64,000 bases of DNA from Siphonodentalium dalli (Eukaryota > Mollusca > Scaphopoda > Gadilida > Siphonodentaliidae), in assembly GCA_032622095.1 (NCBI GenBank), contig CP136069.1, positions 184,999,122 to 185,063,121 of the forward strand, given 5' to 3'. Both the position numbers and the translations under genes were made by a program. Shown here piece after piece: positions 27,240 through 64,000 of the stretch. How positions within the stretch are numbered: the stretch's first letter is position 1; the number at the start of each line of letters is the position of its first letter. The notes below the pieces were generated by a model. The model did not search any database. It was given only the letters and a program-made list of their open reading frames with translations, and was not told the DNA's origin.

Positions 27240-28025
27240 TTTGCCAAGGGTGCTATTGGGTATTTTGGGCTGATCTTGATATATCGAATGTAAACTTAAG
27301 GAGGTCATGAGCGTTATTAGCAATTTCGAAGAATTGGTTAATTTCTTGAATATCACCTGAAAATAAGATAAGGCCGTCGTCGCGGAAGCGCTTATGGGGT
27401 AATATTTTGTTTTTATGTTCAAATTTGTCGAGAAGCTGGATGATATGCTTGTGTATAGCAATGTCGCAAATTTCCGGGGATGGGATGGCTCCCATTGAGG
27501 CTCCAATTATTTGTCGGTAGCAGTGGCCATTGAATGTGAATTCATTCTTTTCCAGGATGATTCTTGCCATTTCAACTAATTTTTCAGTAGGGGGTCCAGT
27601 GATATCATATGTAATTGATGAGTTTGCTTCCAGGGCTTCACGTAGAGCGTTCAGGATTTCATCAAATTTGAGATTCGTATACAGGGAAGTGATGTCATAG
27701 CAAACTAGGAGCGTTGTCTCTGGTATTGGCATTTCTTTTAGGATATTGAGAATTTCTATAGTATCTTTGAGGTGGGTATCCTGTTGTTTGGTGATAGGGA
27801 GTAGAAAATAGTCTAAGAATCGTCCGATTTTCGCTGTCGGCCCTGAACATTGTGAGATTATTGGTCTCCCGGGTGGGATGATTTTAATTTCACTTCCTTT
27901 GAATGCAGGGTCGATGGTCGCTAGTAGGGACCAATTTTGTGTATTTTTGGAAGAAAGTAGATGTGGGGTGTTTTTATCTCATCTCCTCTGTTAAAAAGGA
28001 AGTCGTAGGTGTATTTGTCTATCGA
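27240..28025 (-). pseudogene. Penelope-like element reverse transcriptase fragment
   Basis: Minus-strand sequence encodes part of a Penelope-type reverse transcriptase. From about 28015 the frame shows DFLFNRG, then IYFLPKIHK near 27950; the reading then shifts by one base near 27940. It continues with GRPIISQCSGPTAKIGRF, motif A DITSLYTNL, a motif B-like GASMGAIPSPE and catalytic motif C FRDDGLILF. The frame ends at a stop near 27253, before any GIY-YIG endonuclease. The element lacks its N-terminus and 3' half, so it is a dead fragment. It lies about 200 bp upstream of the start of EGF copy 2 homology and may mark the insertion or break that removed exon 1 there. Confidence 0.85.
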
Positions 28026-40189: not shown

Positions 40190-43100
40190 TATATGAAGGC
40201 TAGTGCTTTCTCCAGAATTAACAACTTCTGTTGAAATGCTGTTATTTCCATGTTGCATCGTGCCCATAACTTATCACAGTCATAACGTAATCTGAGATCA
40301 TTAAAAAATTCGTTCAAGCCGAGTGATTTCGCGGAAAACTTTGCTTTATAAAGATATTGTTTTAAAATAAGTAAAAAATAAGTTATCACGCTGTTTGGTT
40401 CCAATGGGATAGCTCCAAGTAGCATGGTCTTTTTCAAAACATGTAAGTCGACGCCTTTGTCAGTTCCCCATTTGATCAGTTTGTTTAAGAAAGACTGTAC
40501 ATATCTACAGTCCCAAAATATGTGTGAAATTGTTTCAATTTCTGTTTTGCATCTTTCGCATCTATCATTTTGTCTGAGCTTTATTATATTAAGAAATCGA
40601 TTGGTCGCAAGGATTCGAGTGTTTATTCGATATTGTAACCATTGTAGTTTAGTGTCAGGCGTCGTGGTGAACGGTAGTTTAAAGTGAGTGTCCCAAGAGT
40701 TGATTACACCTAGTTCTTGTTCCCATTTTCTGCATGATTTTGGGGTGGGGGAAGTTGAATTGAGAATTCTGTAAAATTCTTGTCCACCTTTTTGGTCGCG
40801 TACAGTAGTTACAAAATTGTCTGGAAGAAATGGGCTAGCAATTCGTCTCAGTGGTTGGTCTAATTATTTCGATATTTCCAATATTTGTCGAGTGATACTG
40901 GTTAAAGTAATAAAGTTTGTTCTTATATTATACGTGCTTAACATTGGCTGTGGCGTGTGAAACCTTCCATCGCTCTGGATCAAATCGTTGATGAAAATTA
41001 CTCCCTTTGCCCTCCATGAGTTGAAATTGATGTATCGCCCATAGATATAGTAATTTCTGGATTATTCCAGATCGTTTCCGACAAAACATTTTGATTTTTA
41101 GAGTTCAATCTTAAATACTCACACCATGATGAAAATACATCTTTCCAAAATGGATTTGACAGCACGCTTAAGTGTTGTAATTTATATATTCTGTCATAAG
41201 TGAGGTACAGGGGGTCATCTAAAATAGGAAGATCCTATATGAGAGGTGCCCATTTGCATTGTTTTGTAATGAGGCGTCGTATACAAGTGATTTTAATTGA
41301 TGAATTGAATGTCTCCACATTAATCATTTTCAAGCCACCATCTGATATGTTACTGCAAATCTGTTGTCGACTGACTCGATCTCTTTTCGAATTCCATAAG
41401 AAGTTATAGAGCAATGCGTTTAGCTTTTTTATAAAATTCGCGGTGCGGATTAGGAAGAGTTAGAAATAGATGTGTCAATTTGGGGAGAATTAATGTCTTG
41501 ATGACTATTAATCTACCAATAGGTGTGAGCAACCGGTGTTTCCATAATGTGATCGTCTTTCTTATTTCGTCCATTTTATCGTCATAATTACTTTGCATTT
41601 TTGGCAAGTCAATATTAAAATGGATCCCTAAAAAGGTAAATTGTTCAGTTACTGTGATACTTAAGTCGCGAATGAAGTCTGGTCTATCGTAATTGCGGAG
41701 CACCACCCACGCCGCCTATCACTTGTCTGGGTTAATTTTTAAACCAGATATCCGGGCAAAAACATCAAGCGTAGAATATGCTTCGCGTACACTCCTTTCT
41801 GAGCCGTCGAGAATAAGCGTTGTATCGTCCGCGTATTGTGTGATCTTATATTCTGAGCTGCCGAGATGTATACCATTTATATTCACATTCTGTCTTACCA
41901 TTAGTGCTAGTATTGCTGCACACAGGAGAAAATATACGGCGATATTGGGTCACCTTGTCGACAGCCTCTTGATAGCTTAAAAGTTTGTGAAATGTGTCCA
42001 TTTAAAAGTACAGAAGAGCTCGAGTTTCTATAGAGGATTGTAATCAATGTTTCATGTCCACTCCAAAATTGAAAAAGTTTAAACATCTTTCTAAAAAACG
42101 CAACGATACAGAATCAAAGGCCTTTTCAAAGTCTACGAGGAGCAGGAGTCCCGGTATTTTGCGTTCATCAGATTTGTGAATAAGATCGTAAATTAGTCTG
42201 GTATTATCTCCGATGTATCGCCCAGCTAAGAATCCGGTCTGATCGTTTTCAATGATGTGGGGCAGTACTTTTTTCAGTCGTTCTGCTACACACGCCGACG
42301 CAAGTTTGTATGATGTATTCAATAAGGAGATTGGCCTCCAATTTTTAAACAGTTGTCTATTTTTATCCTTTTTTGGTATAAGTGTGATGATTCCTTGTTT
42401 CTGAGTAATAGAAAGTTCTCCGGAAGAAAAAGAAGTATTTAGGGATTCGACTAATAAGGGATCTATGTCTGACCAGAAGAATTTGTAAAATTCATATGTA
42501 TATCCTGTAGGGCCCGGGCATTTTCCGTTTTTTTGTATTTTTGAGAACGTATGTTAGTTCCTCTAGTGTGATTGGGCCTTCGATATTTTTGGCCTGAGTA
42601 TCGGACAAATGTGGATGATTTCCGTTACAAAACTGTTTCAGATTTATTTCTTCAGTTGGCTTCTCTGAGTAAAGATTCGCACATAAATTACGTGTGTGGG
42701 TCATGATGGCATTTTGATCTGTTATTTTGTTTCCATTTTCGTCGATCAGACTGGTAAAAGTTTTTGATATGAAGTTCCGTTTTTCTAAATTCAAAAAGTA
42801 TTTAGTTGGCTTTTCCCCTTCCTCGATCCATCTGGCACGAGATCTAATCATTGCACCACGTATTTGTTTTTGGCGAATTTCGCGATGTTCAGATTCAATG
42901 TTTTCAAGCTCATTCATAAAAGTATGCTTTGTTTCGTAGTTTGCAGAAGGAGAATCAATATCTGTCATTAAAGTTTCATTCCTTGCGTTTAAAGTATTTT
43001 CGTTTTGGATGGTCTGGCGTTTTTGTTTTGATGAAAAATGGATTGTAGCCCCCCTTATATCCAAAAGAGCAGCATCTAAAAATAATTTCTTGTTTACCGT

Positions 43101-43340
43101 TGTATCGAATTATATTTGTTATATTTGTAGCGGACATTATATTCTTCAATAATGTTTTTAACTATAGTTGAGTATTCTTTAATTTGGAGGAGGGAGTTAT
43201 TAAATTTCCAGAAGCCTCTACCTGTTTTTATTTCGGTAATGTCTACCGCCAGCGAAATAATAGAGTGGTCTTTGTGTCTGGTCGTGGAAAAGTTTGATTG
43301 GATAGAGCACACGAGCTTTAATGCGGGATAAAGTTTCAAG
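40190..43340 (-). pseudogene. Tx1/L1-like LINE ORF2 remnant
   Basis: A minus-strand non-LTR retrotransposon, 5'-truncated in the endonuclease domain and broken by several frameshifts and stops. In order from 43340 down: the end of an APE-type endonuclease (DHSIISLAVD, then GRGFWKFNNSLL); a linker with WIEEGEKPTKYFLNLEKRN; a frame change near 42505, after which GYTYEFYKFFW is read; DQTGFLAGRYIGDN; RT motif A DFEKAFDSVS near 42115; GCRQGDPIS in a shifted frame near 41960; catalytic YADDTTLIL near 41835; FTFLGIHF near 41620; and a C-terminal part to about 40190. Motif order and wording fit the Tx1/L1 group. A complete ORF2 would be about 1,200-1,300 codons; this one cannot make a protein. Confidence 0.88.
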
Positions 43341-50129: not shown

Positions 50130-50705
50130 GATCCACCATACACAGCTATAAATATCAAGAGAGGACTGGTAATTATTTAGATAGAACGGCCACCATATGG
50201 GTTATCCCACGAACAATTATTTTAAGTGGCCTGGCGACACGGTCCAATATAGCGGCTTCTCTACATTCCGACTTCATTTGAACTAGAACTGAGTGCGGTC
50301 AACACGTCGGCAATGATTGGATTGTCAGTGGACACATATTACATTGTCTGTATGATCCATGTATAACGCAAAATACACGATAATTACAGAGATTACATGC
50401 AAGTGTGTATCCACCCTAAGACACTACGGGTGGATATACACATGCAATCTCTGTAAATATCGTGTATATGGCGTTTTACATAGATCATTCAGAATGTGTA
50501 ATATGAGTCGGCTGACATCTCAATCATTGCGGCTACGTTTGACTAAGGTGGGTCAAGCTCCGAACGTGCAGAGAGCTGTTGACTGGACGAAGTCGTCAGG
50601 CCGCTTAAAATAATTGTTCGCGCGATAACCCAAATGGTGGACGTTCTGTTAAATCATTGTCAGACTTCTCTTGATTTTTATACCACCGATGGCCTCAGGA
50701 ATTTC
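50130..50705. repeat. Large inverted repeat, arms ~230-280 bp
   Basis: A left arm to 50416 and a right arm from 50428 pair around the loop TAAGACACTAC. Paired landmarks: ACAGAGATTACATGC/GCAATCTCTGTA, CCAATGATTGG-type inner blocks, TTATTTTAAGTGGCCTG/AGGCCGCTTAAAATAATTG, and CCACCATATGGGTTATC/GATAACCCAAATGGTGG. The right arm alone reappears at 53656-53945. Confidence 0.8.
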
Positions 50706-52700: not shown

Positions 52701-53440
52701 AGGACCTTGCTCAACCTGTGGATTGAGAAACATATACTGTTCTGTAAATTCTGGGTGAAAAATGGGGGGGGGGGGGGTGTGACTCTTTTTAATTTCAACA
52801 CTGTACCTACATTAATTTTTTTTGTTTCGAACTGAATTAAAACTCGTGAAAAACAGCAACATAATTATATCAGACAGGATTTATTCATTTCGGCATCCGT
52901 GAAACAAGACACGTTTATGACTGGCCTGAAATTTCTTGATAGCAGTTAGTTTGAAGATGGCTTATAACTACTAACTGGTCTCGCCTGTTGAAAAGGACCG
53001 ATGGCGGACAGGCTATTAATGCTACCAATGATTGGTGTGACCATGTCAAATACATGGAATACATGGATTTTACAAACACAAATTATATACAAGTGTGTAT
53101 CCAGCCTACGGTTTTGTTGACTTACCAAGAAATCAACGAACCAACGTCCGAGAAATCAACAACACACAATTAGGTGTCAGTTATGCTGAGTTAGCTAAAT
53201 ATACCTAATGTCTTGATGTGGTCACTTCGATCCTAAGAAATAATCGGAAAATAAACTTTCCAACGAAATGCCTCATCAAGTTGGCTGAAGTAATATCCTG
53301 AGTTAAAATGTCCAAATTAAGAGTTTATTTTGGAAATATTGTTTGGCGAATATACATGTAGTGAGTCAGGAATAATGAATCGCATATAATCGTGAATCAT
53401 ATAATCATGAATCGTCTAAATTTCATAGATCGTCTCACTC

Positions 53441-53535
53441 GTGTCTTCATAATTATGAAGGGTGACGTTAGTCTTGAATGGGAGTTAATAACTCACCAAA
53501 AAGACTGACGCCACCATTTTTAATTATGAAGACAC
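53441..53535. repeat. Inverted repeat, 35-bp arms
   Basis: GTGTCTTCATAATTATGAAG at 53441 pairs with the segment ending at 53535. A decayed version lies near 63085-63135, in the sequence that continues this repeat family after the 5-kb palindrome. Confidence 0.7.
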
Positions 53536-54553
53536 CCTTTAAGATGATCCATCCAATACACAGTAGTACACAGAAACGACATTCGCTGAATATTCGCTTT
53601 ATTTCCGTTTTTAGACGATAGAGATTTTACGGTTTGTTGTGTTATATGTGGATGTTAAGGTGGATACACACATGCATGTAATCTCTGTAAATATCGTATA
53701 ATTTGGCGTTTTACATGGATCATACAAACCTGTAACATGTGTCCGTTGACAACCCAATCATTGCGGCTATGTTTGACCACAGTGAGTCAAGCTCTGAACG
53801 CGCAGAGAACCGTTGACTCTGACGAAGTCGTCAGGCCGCTTAAAATAATTATTTACGCGATAGCCCAAATGGTGGACGTTCTGTTTTAATCATTGTCAGT
53901 CTTCTCCTGATTTTTATACCAGTGATGGCCTCAGGATTTCCCCGACGCGGGAGCTATGATAACAACATAGGGGCAATATTATCCCGGAAGCTATATCGAA
54001 CCAACCCCCTTCCCAATCATGGACTATGGTCGAAACTGTTATAATTCAAGCCTTTACAGGCTAAAATTGTGACAGTTAGGAACCTGTTCAACATTTGGCT
54101 TGAGAAACATATACTGTTTGTTCTGTAAATTCTGGGTTAAAAAATAGGGGTGTCACCCTTTTAATTTAAACGCTGTACCTGCATTAATTTATTGGAGCTG
54201 TAATGGATATTTGCATGGCAATTCCAATTGAATGTTATCACACGAGCTCGCTTTCAAATTATCAGAGCATTTTCAACAAATCAGTATCGTCATAAAAGAG
54301 CTTAAAATTTTGCATATTTTATTTTTGTTTTGGATTACCCTGTTTCCAAGTAATAACGAGAAAAACCAAGTATACAATCGACGGACTCAAATCCACTTTT
54401 CGAAATGAATTAAGACTCGTGAATAACAGCAACAGATATCAGTCAGGATTTATTCGTTTAGGCATCCATGAAAGAAGACATGTTTATGACCGGCCTGAAA
54501 TTTCTTGATTGCAGTTGGTTTGATAATGGCTTAGAACTACTCACTGGTCTCGC

Positions 54554-56576
54554 CAGGGGCCTGTACTATAGATTACCAATAGCCGTGTTTGAACACGTGG
54601 ACAAACTGTCGAATACTATGAATACGGTAATTTACAAGAGAGAGATATTTTATTCCTCCATATCAACGGAGATTACATATATTACAAATATATACAACAA
54701 AATAATGGAGGCGAACGCTTGTTAATAGGTAAAGGCAAATTACTTTAATATCATACATAAATGGATAGTAATGCCTACATATATATATATATATATATAT
54801 AATATATATATATATTTGAGTCAGTTGGCGAGTGGTTTAGTTGATGTATAAAGTCAATGTTATGATAGGCAATGGGGAACATGAAAACTACTTGCGATCA
54901 CCACAATCCCAATGGCACAAGAATCGCGAAAATACACAAATTCTTACAACATTTTACGCTGAACACGAGTACAAAATATCATAAGCGAAAACGCTCTTTA
55001 TAAGAGATAGATGTTTTATTGACCTACATCATAGAAGACAATATATAGCTTTTCATGACTTTCCTTGTATTTACATGGTTCATGGTCAAATATATTTAAC
55101 GATGTATGTACGAACACAAAGGGATAGAGACGGATAGAGTGATCACAAATAAACCCCATCGACAGAAAAACCCACACAAGGTGATTATAGTGTCAGATTG
55201 AGCAGGGAAATTTTAACTGGTTGTCGTATACGTACGATTTCGATACATGTACAATGTAATTGAAAACAAACTGAATTGCCGGAGATAATAGACTGATAAA
55301 AATATTTCCAAGTTAAAAGTGTGAAAATATATATTTCAAGTATATTTTCCAAAGGGTCGGTGTAACATTTTGTTTAAGGAGAAACTTAGATTTAACAAAC
55401 AAAATTACACTGAATGTAGGAAAACATCATACTGGTGGTATCAAGTATAATTTGCAGTTACATTAGCTGGAAAATTTAGCCATTGTAATGATTACAACCT
55501 ATTCTCCAGTCTTAATTTTCAAATTCAGTGCCATTTTCTACCATGGAATCGCGGGTAACATTCACGTATAAGGTCTCCGCTGTCCGAGTGCACCTCCTCC
55601 CTGAACCAGATATTATTTCCGAGTCCGGAAAACTATATTTGCACCCATTCGGTTGAAAATCTGCAATGGTTACTCAAGATTTCCAACTATTAGAAATCCC
55701 CAACCCAACAATTCCAACCAATCGAAACTTAGAACTCAACTAATTGCCATTTAACTCCATAAATCAATCATCACGAACTTTGGAACGAAGATTATGGTGA
55801 TGCGCCAACATCCATCAACACGTCCCTGCTTGAAATTCCCAATTGTTGAGTAATTTGGTGAGAATCGCCCCTGTCACAACATAATTTATATGGAAACCCT
55901 TATTTATCAAGGCCAATGTGTCTGTTTATGAACCCCATCTCAAAATATTTATATCTACGCCCATGCATAATTTGAACCCATCATCCCAATATGACTACGA
56001 TTTTATTGACCCCGTGAAACTTCGCACGTCGACAAAGGGTTAATGCATGAGTGCGCAATACACCAAGCGATAATCCGACATATCGACATTCGCATGCGTT
56101 TCATTGCGGTGACTACCACTAATTCAGCCTCGTATACTTGTAATGTTAACATCGTGTTCTATCCGATTTGTGTTATTTCTGTACTATGGAACTCCCTAAG
56201 TTGGTAATTTATCAGCCCGTCAAGCGAGTTCTTGTTTTTCCCCAAGTTAGACAATTCGAGTACTATAGAATAACAAAAATATGCAGCGTTGGAACACTCC
56301 ATTCACCACAAAAACCGAGCAGCTTGCTGCTGAAATAAATCCCAGTTACAGAATGGCTCTCCCAGAATATTATATAAGTCAGTTCACAACGATGTATGGT
56401 GTGAAAAAGGGTAATCGCCTATTGTTAAATTCCAATATCCAATGCAAGGAATTTACAAGAATACAATTGCTCGAGTACTATAAAACACAAGTCTAGCTTT
56501 ACAATACTAGGTATTTCCGACGAACGCTGTCCGCGTGTTCAAAACGGCTATTGGAAATCTATAGTACAGGGCCCTG
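54554..56576. mobile_element. Inserted 2.0-kb element with ~50-bp TIRs
   Basis: Ends CAGGGGCCTGTACTATAGAT and its inverse ending GTACAGGGCCCTG form imperfect TIRs of about 50 bp, continuing through CCAATAGCCGT and GAACACG. The paralogue at 52985-53000 reads CTCGCCTGTTGAAA straight across, so the segment is an insertion. CAGGG-type ends are common in hAT-like elements, but the 8-bp duplication was not visible. It contains an (AT)n tract at 54779-54816 and one open frame of 71 codons at 56281-56496 without a recognisable domain. Confidence 0.75.
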
Positions 56577-57299
56577 TTGAAATGGACCGAACGCGCGCAG
56601 GCGATTAATGCTATCAGTGATTGGTGTGACCATGTACAAATTAATACATGGAATACATGGATTTTACATATGATATTTTTCGAGCGTTTACTTGGATTAG
56701 CAAGAAAAAATTGTATTCACAGTACATGAGTTAACGTAAATTGGGGGTAGAGAGATCATTGTCATGTCGACCAATGAGAAGTTGTTATTAGATAGTTGTT
56801 GACAGAGGATTATAGTTTGGTGAGAGTTCATTCTAGCCTAACCAGTCGAGTCAGCAGGTCACATTTATTTTTATATAAGTGAACACGTAATAGAACATGC
56901 AAGCTTATAGTACATAAACAAATTAGTTATTGGCAACGTAGAACATATTGCATTGTTTGTGTTTTTGATACATTGTCATTGAGAATGAATTTTGTCGCTG
57001 CGTACGAATGGGGTTTCTGAAAACAGGTTTCCGCCTTGTTTTTCCCCCAGAAAATAAAGGGGGTTTTTACCTAGGCGGTTTTTCCTGGCCGACCGCGCAG
57101 TTTTCTCGATATGTACAATAACCTGTATGTCCAAATGTGCCCACAATATTATCTGTAAACATGAAAACCTTAATAAACGCTGACTTACGACTATGGATCG
57201 GCTCATTTGCAATATTTCGAGTTGTTTATTGTAACGTCGAATTGGGAATACCAGAAATTACAAACAAGTGTGTATCCACTGTTACTGGCTAAGTCACTA

Positions 57300-60200
57300 T
57301 AGTCCAGGAGATATTGGTAGACCTCTGCACCCCCCCCCAGGACTTAACTTCACCCCACTAATTTTCTTCCTTACGGTCTCCTCTAATTTTTTTCACTTGT
57401 TAACAAGAAAAAAAAGTGGCCGCAGAGACTCCAGACAAGATGGCGTCCATCATGGCGGCCATTTGTTGTATATGCACCAGGTCTCTTTGATCGCCGTTAT
57501 AGTAAAGATGATGTCACATGCGGTCTTGTTTTCCGTTCGATTCGTTATGGTAATATACAACCCTTACAAATTAGATAAAAATCCGACACAAAAATCCAAT
57601 ATGGCGGCCAAGATGGCCGCCGAAATATGAAAAATTGCAATTTTTCGGACATTTCACCACCTTTCGTTTGTCTCTGTGGGAAAATGTTGGCACCTTGACG
57701 CGATTTTATACATTTATCGTCTAGAAGAGTCATTGGCGAACACACGGGGACCATAATATACATTTCTTGACGGATATTTTTGTCCGATATCACGTTTTCC
57801 CAAATGCCGGTATAATCCGGTCAAAGCCAAAACGACGCTAATAACGCAATGTCTGTTTCGAATCAATGAGTGTTATTGCTATTATTACTCCAGCCATGAT
57901 TATATATGTGCAGTAGATACTCGGGCTAGGATTCCTCTTATACCTGAATTGAGGAATATTCACCCAAATCCAAGATGGCGGCCAAAATGGCCACCAGAAA
58001 TAGAAAAATCACCGAAAATCGCTGATTTTAACATCAGTGAGAGTTATTGTCACGACAACTCCACACCTGCTTACTATTGTGAGTTGGGAACACTTAGTTG
58101 AATAACTTTCCTTATATTGCATCCAAATAAAAGTCCCCCAAATCCAAAATGGCCGACAAATTTTGAAAAATCACCGAAATTCCCTCATGTTCACATCATT
58201 GGGCATTATTGTCGAGAAAACTCCACACATGCTGACAGTTGAGTTGTAAATACTGAGGTTAAGTAATTACCTTTCATCCCATGCAAGAAATGGTTTTCCA
58301 AATCTAAGATGGCGGCCAAAATGGCGACCGATATTTGAAAACACGCCTACATTCCTTTACTTTCTTACGATGGGCGTTACTGTTTCGCGAATTCTACCCA
58401 CCATCACATGTTGATATGGAATATTGGTATGAAGTATTCATTTGATACTCAAGGTCAAGATGGCAGGTAAACTGGAGGCCAGAAATTGAAAAGAAATCGA
58501 TATATTCACATACAAATTTCAACTTTTTGTCATAGTATCGATATGTATGGACGAAACTATACACAAACCATATATTAGTTCAACTTAAAACGTATCAAAA
58601 CGCATAACATTGATCGGGTCCTTCTGGAAGTACGAAAACCCACACTTAATATAGCGATGTGTCATTTCGAAATCCATTTGACACTTCGCGCCGATAATGG
58701 CCGTAACCGTAGGTGCGCCGAATAGCCACATTAGAACAATTACCTGGTAAAAGATTCTGATTTGCCACGTCCTTAATGATCTGGACCAGTTTCCATTTCT
58801 TTGCCTGATAAATCTAGGTCGCTCACACCGACAAAGTATTCAACACTTCCTGTGAGAAGGGTCCCTTTAATCATAACGTTTCAAACAATTAATTTCCCGG
58901 TGTCTGGCTTAAGATTTTAGATGCTTTCTAAATATGGGATTTGTTCGTCATCTTGAACTATAAAGGCATATGGTCGATAAGTATACAAGCTTACAGAAGG
59001 TCATCTCTATGTATGTCTTTCTCATACCCCGTGGGGATAATGACATGTATACATGGCGAACTTCCCAGTTAACTAGTCACTTCTCAATAGATGGTTCAAC
59101 TCACAAACGTAGCGAACGTATTGGCATACGTGGACAACTTCGGCAGTGTTTCGGAGGTAGCTAGCTGTCTCATTCCCTTGGACAGATGCCTATCTGCTAA
59201 GGAGAAGACCATAATGTACCGACTACCCACACTTCTTGATCATGATCATAAGCAAACTGTGTGACGTCCCGCAGTCGTCTCGTCGAATAGCTCCCAGCAG
59301 AGAACAATACTCGCGGTGCTAGTTTGTGGACATGCGCCATGACAGTGGGAATGAAATGGGACACGGTATACAACCCTACACCAGGTGCATGTTTCAATAT
59401 AGAATGTCATGCGTGTTGGTATTTTTGGTGTGGTAAGATTGTATTTCCTCATCCGTTTCAAGGCCGTTCTGAATCAACATGACCAGACGTATAATTTTGT
59501 CTGGATAATACTATCCTAGCCAGTCGGATGGGCTAAAGGATAATGTCTTTATGGAATGAAGGTATGCATTGATGTTATGATCTCTCAGGGTTAGTGTCAG
59601 TATGTGGACGGTATTATTCAAGAAAATGTCAGGAACTGTGGTGCATTTATTTCACTGTGTGTTTAAAGAACAATTTATAGTCTCGATGGCAATGGATGTG
59701 GACGTTGGTGAACGTGACCTTTATGATCATATAGCTTTATATTATATAACTTTAGAATATAGTAGTTAAGATGTCTCATGTAGGACAATGGTTTTGAATG
59801 GTGATGTTACCAATAAATCACTTGGTGTACCCAACGTAGGTTAAACTGAATGCAAGATCTCATCAAAATAACATTCCTCTAGACGTTCTTCGCGTTGAAC
59901 ATTTCACCCTTGTGTTGATGGCATTGTACTTTCTTGAACCATACCGACCACCACCCAGCGTGAGTATGACATATTATCGGTAACTATCAAATGCATCGTC
60001 CTGAAGACTACATCCATCCCAGTCTGGTGGGACTTATATAGTAGTAGCCAATGGTACACGTCTGGTTCGTTGATTAAGAACGGCTTCCAAGCGGATTGAA
60101 AGATACAATCTTAGCATACAAGGAAAGCAAAGCCACATGAGATCATGTCTGAATCTAAAACATACCCAAAGAAGGGGCGGTGCAGTCATGGTCCAATTTC

Positions 60201-62362
60201 ATTTCCACTATCATGACACATGCCCACAAACTAGCACCGCATGTATTGTTATTATCTGCTTGGATCTGTACGGTGAGACGATTGATGGACGCCACCAGGA
60301 CTGTTCTTATGACCATGGTCAAGAAGTGTGGGTATATTATGCATTATGGTCTTCTACGCCTTAGCAGAAAGGCATCCGTCAAATGTTAGGCTTTCAACAT
60401 TCGAAGCCATATACAGAAGTTGTCCGGCTACGTCAGTACGTGAATATGTGAATTGGTGAACCATATATTGAGAAGTGGCTGGATGGGAAGATCACCAGAT
60501 GTACAGTTTGGTATCCACATTAGATAACCAAATCTGAAAAAACGCAGATAGAGAGATCCTTCTGAAAGCTAGTATACGCATCGACCGCATACCTTTGTAG
60601 TTTATCACGCAAGATGACGCTCAGATCCAATATGTAGCATCTGAATTATACCATAAGCTACCACGAATGAAGCTCGCCAAGAATAAGGATAAGAATTCCC
60701 AGCTTTCGAGACAAACACGTGAGCTTGACACTGGCATATGTGTTGTTTGAAACATTCCGATTAGTGGGACCCTTCTACCAAGAAGTGTGGAATACTGTGT
60801 TGGAGTGAGCGAGATAGATTAATGTGACGAAACGGATGCTGATCCAGATAATGCTGAATGTGGCAAATCAGAATAAGCTCAGGTACTGTTGTTTTGATTC
60901 TTGGAAGTCATAATATGACTATTCGGCGCACCCATATACGGTTACGGCCATTATGGGCGCTTAGTGGAGAATGGATTTCTAAATGCCACATCGCGATTAT
61001 TGTGGGTTTTCATCCTTCCAGAAGGCGACGACCTATGTTGGAACTAATAGATGGCTTATGTACCGTTTCGTCCAATGCATACATATTGATATTATGACAA
61101 AAAGTTGAAATTAGTATGTGACAATTTCGACTTCTTTTCAATTTCTGGCCGCCAATTTGGCAGTCATCTTGATTGTGAGAGTTGGCCAAACTCAAATGAA
61201 TACTTCATAGCAATGTTCCATATGAATACTTCATATCAATGTTCCATATGGGTAGAATTCGCGTAACAATAACGCCCATAGTAAGAAAGTAAAGGAATGT
61301 AAGCTTGTTTTCAAAGTTCGGACGCCAATTTGGCCGCCATCTTCGATTTGGAAAACAATTTCCTTCATCAGATGCAAGGTAATTACTTCACCTCAGTATT
61401 TACAACTTAACTGTCAGCATGTGTGGAGTTTTCTCGGCAATAATGCCCAATGATGTGAACATGATGGAATTTCGGTGATTTTTCAAAATTTGTCGGCCAT
61501 TGTGGGCGCCATTTTGGATTTGGGGGACTTTTATTTGGATGCAATATAAGGAAAGTTATTCAACTAAGTGTTCCCAACTCACAATAGTAAGCAGGTGTGG
61601 AGTTGTCGTGACAATAACTCTCACTGATGTTAAAATCAGCGATTTTCGGTGATTTTTCTATTTCTGGTGGCCATTTTGGCCGCCATCTTGGATTTGGGTG
61701 AATATTCCTCAATTCAGGTATAAGAGGAATCCTAGCCCGAGTATCTCCTGCACATATATAATCATGGCTGGAGTAATAATAGCAATAACACTCATTGATT
61801 CGAAACAGACATTGCGTTATTAGCGTCGTTTTGGCTTTGACCGGATTATACCGGCATTTGGGAAAACGTGATATCGGACAAAAATATCCGTCAAGAAATG
61901 TATATTATGGTCCCCGTGTGTTCGCCAATGACTCTTCTAGACGATAAATGTATAAAATCGCGTCAAGGTGCCAACATTTTCCCACAGAGACAAACGAAAG
62001 GTGGTGAAAGGTCCGAAAATAGCAATTTTTCACATTTCGGCGGCCATCTTGGCCGCCATATTGGATTTTTGTGTCGGATTTTTGGCTAATTTGTAAGGGT
62101 TGTATATTACCATAACGAATCGAACGGAAAACAAGACCGCATGTGACATCATCTTTACTATAACGGCGATCAAAGAGACCTGGTGCATATACCAAAAATG
62201 GCCGCCATGATGGACGCCATCTTGTCTGGAGTCTCTGCGGCCACTTTTTTTTCTTGTTAACAAGTGAAAAAAATTAGAGGAGACCTTAAGGAAGAAAATT
62301 AGTGGGGTGAAGTTAAGTCCTGGGGGGGGGGGTGCAGAGGTCTACCAATATCTCCTGGACTA
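57300..62362. mobile_element. ~5-kb palindromic (foldback) element
   Basis: Two arms of about 2.3-2.4 kb, ends TAGTCCAGGAGATATTGG and the inverse, meet at a short unpaired centre near 59650-59950. The outer 1 kb or so of each arm is very similar; the inner parts are more diverged but still collinear (for example ATCATGATCA/ATGGTCATAAG with CACACTTCTTG, and GTGGCAAATCAG). CTA flanks both ends (57297-57299 and 62363-62365). The flanks resemble the uninterrupted repeat at 53100-53150 (ACCAAGAAATCAAC follows in both), supporting insertion. Inner-arm frames at 59197-59397 (-) and 60137-60389 (+) are homologous to each other but not recognised. Confidence 0.82.
57590..58470. repeat. ~165-190-bp tandem units with ATGGCGGCC motifs (left arm)
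   Basis: Within the palindrome arm, AAGATGGCGGCC or AAAATGGCC-type motifs recur near 57600, 57972, 58146, 58308 and 58458. Each is followed by TGAAAAATCACCGAAAT or a related stretch and by a block with CATTGGGCATTATTGTCG or similar. The same series is mirrored at about 61140-62060. Confidence 0.7.
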
Positions 62363-63184
62363 CTACGCTTGTGTTCATTTACCAAGAAATCAACAAAACA
62401 ACACTCGAGCATTCAACAACAGAAATTAGGTGCGAGTTGTGCAGACACTCGAATTGTTGTTGGTTGGTTGCTTAATAAGTTAATCACAAGCTGTCAATCC
62501 ACATTATTCTGTAAAACCATTGGTTGTCACACATTTAACTCTTAAAGATATTTCTCGATAACCTAAATTTTGTTATTATGTTCCCCGCCGCAGAGTGACC
62601 ACGCATATGCCGCGTGCCTAAAAATGTATTTGGAAACTGTTCGATTTAACATGAAATTATGGTGCTGCGTCATAATTCCTTCGGGTATGACTGTATTGAC
62701 AATAGCCGTACTAGATGCTAACATTCAGTGCAAAAGTAACCAGACAAATCAACAAGATTGAACAATGAAATAAAAACCAACACGGGCTTGTGTCATCGCG
62801 TTCGAATATATATCAAAACCACGTGCAACTATACAGCTGCCCGGCGCGTGACAATTAGTTGCTAATAGCCATTTTGTGTGGTTCTCTGCCTGTGAAATGA
62901 CGGATTAAATTATAAGAAATAACTCTTGTTTCGATTAAGGTTATGAGTTATAACCGAACATTCGGAAGAAAAATTTTCTATAACTGCGCTACGCAGTTAC
63001 AACTACATAACAAATTCGGAGTTAATTTGGAAATATTGCTTGGACGAAATTGTGACAGTCAGGAATAATCGCACGTGGTCGTGAATAGAGTTAACAACTT
63101 CTAATCAGGACTAACGTCACCTTTCTTAATTCTGAAGACACTCGCTGAGATGATCCATCCAATGCGTCTCGTCTTATTTGAATG
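62363..63184. other. Continuation of the repeat mosaic
   Basis: From 62380 (ACCAAGAAATCAAC) to about 63160 the sequence is related to 53125-53565, including TTTGGAAATATTG, CAGTCAGGAATAAT and GATGATCCATCCAAT. The open frame at 62570-62761 shows no domain. Confidence 0.55.
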
Positions 63185-63814
63185 CAACCTCATTTGTTAC
63201 TGATAGATAGTACACCTCCCCGCCATCAACCTCATTTGTTACTGATAGATAGTACACCTCCCCGCCATCAACCTCATTTGTTACTGATAGATAGTACACC
63301 TCCCCGCCATCAACCTCATTTGTTACTGATAGATAGTACACCTCCCCGCCATCAACCTCATTTGTTACTGATAGATAGTACACCTCCCCGCCATCAACCT
63401 CATTTGTTACTGATAGATAGTACACCTCCCCGCCATCAACCTCATTTGTTACTGATAGATAGTACACCTCCCCGCCATCAACCTCATTTGTTACTGATAG
63501 ATAGTACACCTCCCCGCCATCAACCTCATTTGTTACTGATAGATAGTACACCTCCCCGCCATCAACCTCATTTGTTACTGATAGATAGTACACCTCCCCG
63601 CCATCAACCTCATTTGTTACTGATAGATAGTACACCTCCCCGCCATCAACCTCATTTGTTACTGATAGCTAGTACACCTCCCCGCCATCAACCTCATTTG
63701 TTACTGATATATAGTACACCTCCCCGCCATCAACCTCATTTGTTACTGATAGCTAGTACACCTCCCCGCCATCAACCTCATTTGTTACTGATAGATAGTA
63801 CACCTCCCCGCCAT
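63185..63814. repeat. Minisatellite, 42 bp x 15
   Basis: Exactly 15 units of 42 bp starting CAACCTCATTTGTTACTGAT. Units 1-11 are identical; units 12-14 vary at the GATAGATAG segment (GATAGCTAG, GATATATAG, GATAGCTAG). Because 42 is divisible by three, long frames stay open on both strands; these are repeat artefacts. Confidence 0.97.
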
Positions 63815-64000
63815 CAATTCAATTCAATTAGTTTATTCTCTTAAACTCATATTACATTTTCATGAGTATTGAGACATAATATATACAACATTTACAATAG
63901 AAGAACATTGTTATATGCAATAGCTATTATGTACACAGATCCGAATCAGCCGGTCAATCGAAGCCGGTGTCACGTTAACCCTTTACCCAACAGAACGGCC
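63815..64000. other. Intergenic, window edge
   Basis: A short (TTCAA)n remnant at 63815-63828, then unremarkable sequence to the end of the window. Confidence 0.4.

Follow-up and report, generated by a model that had tools for sequence, protein, structure and literature searches.

The region 57300–62362 of the window (the whole 64 kb stretch of Siphonodentalium dalli DNA that was analysed) forms a 5,063 bp inverted repeat, which is likely to be a single inserted copy of a foldback-type, non-autonomous DNA transposon whose outer ∼1 kb was homogenised after an old inverted duplication. It is a real, large and well bounded foldback-type element with exact ends, flanking CTA, an unoccupied paralogue, two tiers of arm identity, repeated motifs and no recognised coding sequence in the tested frames (Table 1). 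As far as our searches could tell its sequence is new, and its kind is already known.

Global alignment confirms the ∼5 kb palindrome of the preliminary description, with arms of more than 2 kb that run nearly to the centre. The arms (∼2.33 kb on the left and ∼2.43 kb on the right of 5.06 kb) are collinear to ∼300 bp from the centre, up to left position 59629, and ∼300 bp remain centrally; the long inverted repeats thus make up most of the element. The termini are exact, with TAGTCCAGG... at the left end and ...CCTGGACTA at the right. The mirror match starts at 57300 and 62362 with 39 identical nucleotides (57300–57338 and 62324–62362). Further arm-to-arm blocks comprise 512 nt at a rounded 100%, within which the gapped alignment has two substitutions, 315 nt at 98% and 257 nt at 92%; smaller blocks that keep the register are 78–91% identical. 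Even the innermost pair tested (59440–59700 versus 59930–60110) scores 40.1, whereas 200 shuffles averaged 3.5 and peaked at 10.2. Folded as a single strand with DNA parameters, the palindrome has a predicted energy of −1993 kcal/mol, against −592, −573 and −551 kcal/mol for three dinucleotide shuffles, and 1,941 of the 2,140 predicted pairs lie within 250 nt of the mirror register. The very large hairpin that had been proposed for the single-stranded state is therefore what the model predicts along the palindrome axis.

Table 1. Features of the palindrome and its unoccupied paralogue (positions in the window).
Feature	Coordinates	Strand	Remark
Paralogous site without insert	53091–53189	+	Single CTA at 53106–53108
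Left CTA	57297–57299	+	Probable 3 bp target-site duplication; direct reading
Left arm, outer tier	57300–58273	+	98.7% identical to mirror
First ATGGCGKCC-type motif pair of left arm	57437–57463	+	
Left-arm subrepeat region	57590–58618	+	∼170 bp units with AAGATGGCGGCC motif
Left arm, inner tier	58274–59629	+	∼76–82% identical to mirror, many indels
Central spacer	59630–59930	none	No clear mirror; borders approximate
Right arm, inner tier	59931–61375	−	Inner border approximate
Mirror of subrepeat region, right arm	61027–62070	−	
Right arm, outer tier	61376–62362	−	
Right CTA	62363–62365	+	Probable 3 bp target-site duplication; direct reading

The arm alignment spans 2,242 columns with 273 substitutions and ∼50 gaps, and the substitutions are distributed very unevenly. 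The outer tier has 13 substitutions in 973 aligned columns, while the inner tier has 260 in 1,269 (79.5% identity, a value that varies between 76 and 82% across four alignment scoring schemes). Identity per 100 bp is 97–100% over 57300–58199, 90–91% up to 58399 and 73–87% beyond. This profile thus bears out the earlier observation that identity is high outside and lower inside; the gradient that had been described is mainly a step near 58274. A single step at this position (BIC 1448.2) fits much better than a logistic gradient (1489.0) or a uniform rate (1668.7), and we reject a smooth gradient. A two-step model (58241 and 58768) equals the single step (1448.3) and three steps are worse (1458.4). 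The gain in log-likelihood from one step is 118.0, compared with a maximum of 10.7 among 500 permutations, and three of the four scoring schemes place the break at 58274, the remaining one at 58260. A slight inward fall of identity persists within the inner tier (LR 7.8). Transitions account for 114 of 264 substitutions further in and for two of nine in the outermost 847 bp, which are too few to read. A tandem duplication of 26 bp (61196–61250) occurs in the right inner arm and is a single copy in the left arm, which indicates that the inner arms evolve separately. Palindromes in the window do not generally have homogenised ends: in only five of nine other, smaller ones is the outer third more similar than the inner third.

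The arms carry internal subrepeats marked by a short motif. All ten AAGATGGCGGCC-like sites of the entire 64 kb window lie within the element (0.09 expected), as do 18 of the 23 sites that follow a looser pattern (3.65 expected). This motif, which we take to be similar to the vertebrate YY1 site, gave no literature match in combination with 'transposable element'. Clear homology between the subrepeat units is limited to 57964–58446, where three adjacent units are clearly homologous (72% over 179 nt for 58144–58320 versus 57982–58160, E 1e-19); another match covers 120 nt at 77%. The outermost and innermost units are tied to the others mainly through the motif. From outside to inside, the five units are identical to their mirrors at 0.98, 1.00, 0.94, 0.88 and 0.82. 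In a tree each unit pairs with its own mirror (five of five), with the caveats that off-mirror identities (0.61–0.74) overlap those of shuffled pairs, which average 0.64 and reach 0.74, and that the tree program issued a long-branch warning. This pairing suggests that the units were already distinct before the inverted duplication.

CTA adjoins the palindrome on both sides, as originally noted, and is present once in the paralogue. A flanking repeat of 3 bp arises by chance about once in 50–60 cases. The proposed empty-site paralogue holds up in that the insert is absent and the right flank (62363–62445) matches 53106–53189 at 79.8% over 84 bp (E 1e-12), which places the right border well. On its left side the claim is weaker: the match is just a short stretch around AAGTGTGTATCCA, a level that 280 of 20,000 random stretches also attain for the site at 53091, and in the filled copy 16 extra bases separate this stretch from the insert. 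Judged by these flanks, the empty site is real but not clean. As the left side is short and the 16 bases intervene, a 3 bp CTA target-site duplication is probable, not proven. A second unoccupied copy at 50401 is suggestive at most, its left-side match being equalled by 225 of 20,000 random stretches; this repeat copy has bases that resemble the 16 extra ones, in a weak match.

No Pfam family reached the cut-off in six reading frames drawn from the palindrome, out of 94 stop-to-stop frames of at least 40 amino acids listed over 56500–63200. The only two matches, both below the curated cut-off, were to Herpes_UL52 (E 0.047) and Defensin_int (E 0.08), and the longest of the stop-to-stop frames that overlap the element runs to 131 codons. 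We also considered, and rejected, a coding sequence concealed in the inner arms: codon phase is not steady across seven blocks, and of 51 gaps 16 have a length divisible by three. No relatives of the element were present in plasmid and phage collections, and a 21-base end pattern had no match in genome_contigs. An 18-base end pattern matched eight viral contigs, the best of which extends over 25 bases with 23 identical (E 0.002); we take these matches as chance, with no longer shared stretch above E 1. Rfam and tRNA scans of the 64 kb window gave no match. A search of the 64 kb window at E 1e-3 for other copies, which the preliminary description had called for across the genome, gave none.

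These observations would fit the following scenario. The TAGTCCAGG... ends, and perhaps also the repeated AAGATGGCGGCC motifs of the arms, would be recognised by a transposase provided in trans, and the element would be excised and pasted at a new site, with a 3 bp CTA duplication as the result. We infer this mobility from one known copy, the only one in the window. In its history the subrepeats would have formed first; an inverted duplication would then have created the long arms, these would have diverged for a prolonged period and homogenisation confined to the outer ∼1 kb would have come last. As one inverted duplication predicts even divergence of the arms, the step suggests that the outer part was homogenised later. 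Given this reading, we lean slightly towards a repair process in which the ends or their vicinity are broken and one arm serves as the template for the other. Copying is favoured over selection by the abrupt inner boundary, by conservation that is equal within and outside the motifs, and by the great length. The gene conversion at the ends that had been suggested earlier is thus supported as far as homogenisation goes, with exchange with another copy as the main alternative to it.

In such an exchange both outer ∼1 kb segments would have been acquired from a younger copy of the family, so that young ends would enclose an older middle. A sharp break like that near 58274 is what a point of exchange would produce, and Galileo copies whose ends belong to one subfamily and whose middle belongs to another appear in the available part of the published description (PMC3573991). 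It would however require either exchange at mirrored positions in the two arms or conversion of both, and the window offers no donor, which makes it rather doubtful. The preliminary description also raised selection on the termini for transposition; acting through the binding of transposase, it would keep the ends alike while the middle drifts. Repeated motifs are indeed present at the element ends, and the long terminal inverted repeats (TIRs) of Galileo hold multiple transposase-binding sites according to the portion of PMC3688188 at hand. Yet the sequence between the motifs is conserved equally, and the two arms are no more alike at the motifs than at other positions: mismatches number 3/143 versus 6/704 in the outer part (Fisher p 0.18, with few differences and low power) and 15/115 versus 43/355 further in (p 0.87). 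Near identity over ∼1 kb with a sharp end is also far wider than a binding site, and the motif units beyond the break, U4 and U5, have fallen to 88% and 82% mirror identity. We find no support for such selection and regard it as highly improbable.

It is scarcely more plausible that the palindrome arose as an inverted segmental duplication of the host, or from two elements inserted head to head, and is not one mobile unit. The lack of coding sequence and of a second copy in the 64 kb window would suit this rival, and the part of the literature at hand describes sex chromosomes with palindromes that undergo arm-to-arm conversion. The CTA on either side, the exactly mirrored ends and the unoccupied paralogue argue against it, and independent copies placed head to head would leave the step unexplained. 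A false inverted duplication created by assembly or sequencing should have uniform, near-perfect arms, whereas the inner arms differ by ∼18–24% with ∼50 indels and the left and right flanks differ from each other; its probability is negligible. The single foldback-type insertion with later homogenised ends therefore remains our preferred reading.

Judged by analogy, the closest precedents of this element appear to be Galileo and Tetris. The comparisons with Galileo, a member of the P superfamily in Drosophila, draw on the available parts of the published descriptions and are made by description, not sequence (PMC3573991). Like the palindrome, Galileo has long TIRs that contain tandem repeats and are nearly identical within a copy (98–100% between the two), inverted arms that are extended in non-autonomous copies, and copies whose ends and middle differ in origin. 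Its TIRs grow when internal sequence is duplicated in inverted orientation, the middle parts of some copies have been exchanged, and both arm-to-arm copying and exchange between copies are described (PMC3573991); gap repair and template switching are named as mechanisms in the accessible text of PMC4168063. In contrast to the palindrome, with arms of ∼2.3–2.4 kb that reach almost to the centre, Galileo TIRs measure 18–1,250 bp or so, and its target duplications are of 7 bp, in the same excerpts (PMC3573991). Tetris, a foldback element of Drosophila virilis, is likewise described in the portion consulted as non-coding, with long TIRs containing tandem units and a variable middle (PMC4079207). 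There its TIRs reach 1,735 bp with ∼220 bp units, compared with ∼170 bp here, and its target duplications are of 8–10 bp, compared with 3 bp (PMC4079207).

The 3 bp repeat at the palindrome borders also departs from the 7 bp target duplication of Galileo and the P superfamily. FB elements of Drosophila and TU elements of sea urchin have a foldback architecture with arm subrepeats, in which the palindrome resembles them by description, not sequence; their target duplications are longer than 3 bp. A duplication of 3 bp is found in the CACTA superfamily, and to our knowledge the TAGTCCAGG ends match no known terminus. PIF/Harbinger elements also duplicate 3 bp, as stated in the available part of PMC2213677, and the CTA/CTA flanks, a probable duplication, have the length found in both superfamilies. 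The six palindrome frames contain no Pfam family at the cut-off that would correspond to the DDE/DDD transposase of PIF/Harbinger, an absence that is expected in a non-autonomous copy.

On its own the element is an ordinary repeat, though large and well preserved. Long-armed foldback elements are hot spots of inversions and conversion, and here an old inverted duplication and young homogenised ends can be distinguished within one sequence. Further copies would allow the tie between arm conversion and transposition to be tested. A bolder and quite unlikely proposal is that the element represents an undescribed foldback family with a 3 bp duplication, in which end-initiated break repair regularly rewrites one arm from the other. 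Outer arm identity would then date the last mobilisation while the middle retains older history, giving a two-speed clock.

A diverged repeat copy at 52701–53557 corresponds to 54078–63163, the latter being interrupted by three inserts: 54554–56576, about 56677–57264 and the palindrome. The first of these has 36 nt terminal repeats at 92% (CAGGGGCCTGTACTATAG...) and no evident target duplication relative to the unoccupied copy at 52985. A near-complete palindrome of 536 bp lies at 50147–50682 and a partial inverted relative at 53655–53957; GTGTGTATCCACC is common to both and to the left flank of the large palindrome. Just past the right flank, 63185–63817 is a tandem array of 15 copies of a 42 bp unit (98% matches), which is open for more than 150 codons on both strands because 42 is a multiple of three. 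The 64 kb window as a whole contains reverse-transcriptase fragments, many interspersed repeats and few long reading frames. LINE-type remains occupy 40192–43109 on the minus strand (RVT_1, E 1.5e-15; zf-RVT, E 2.7e-6). A reverse-transcriptase-like frame of 241 codons at 27256–27978, also on the minus strand, matches RVT_1 below the cut-off (E 0.0074) and is presumably Penelope-like.
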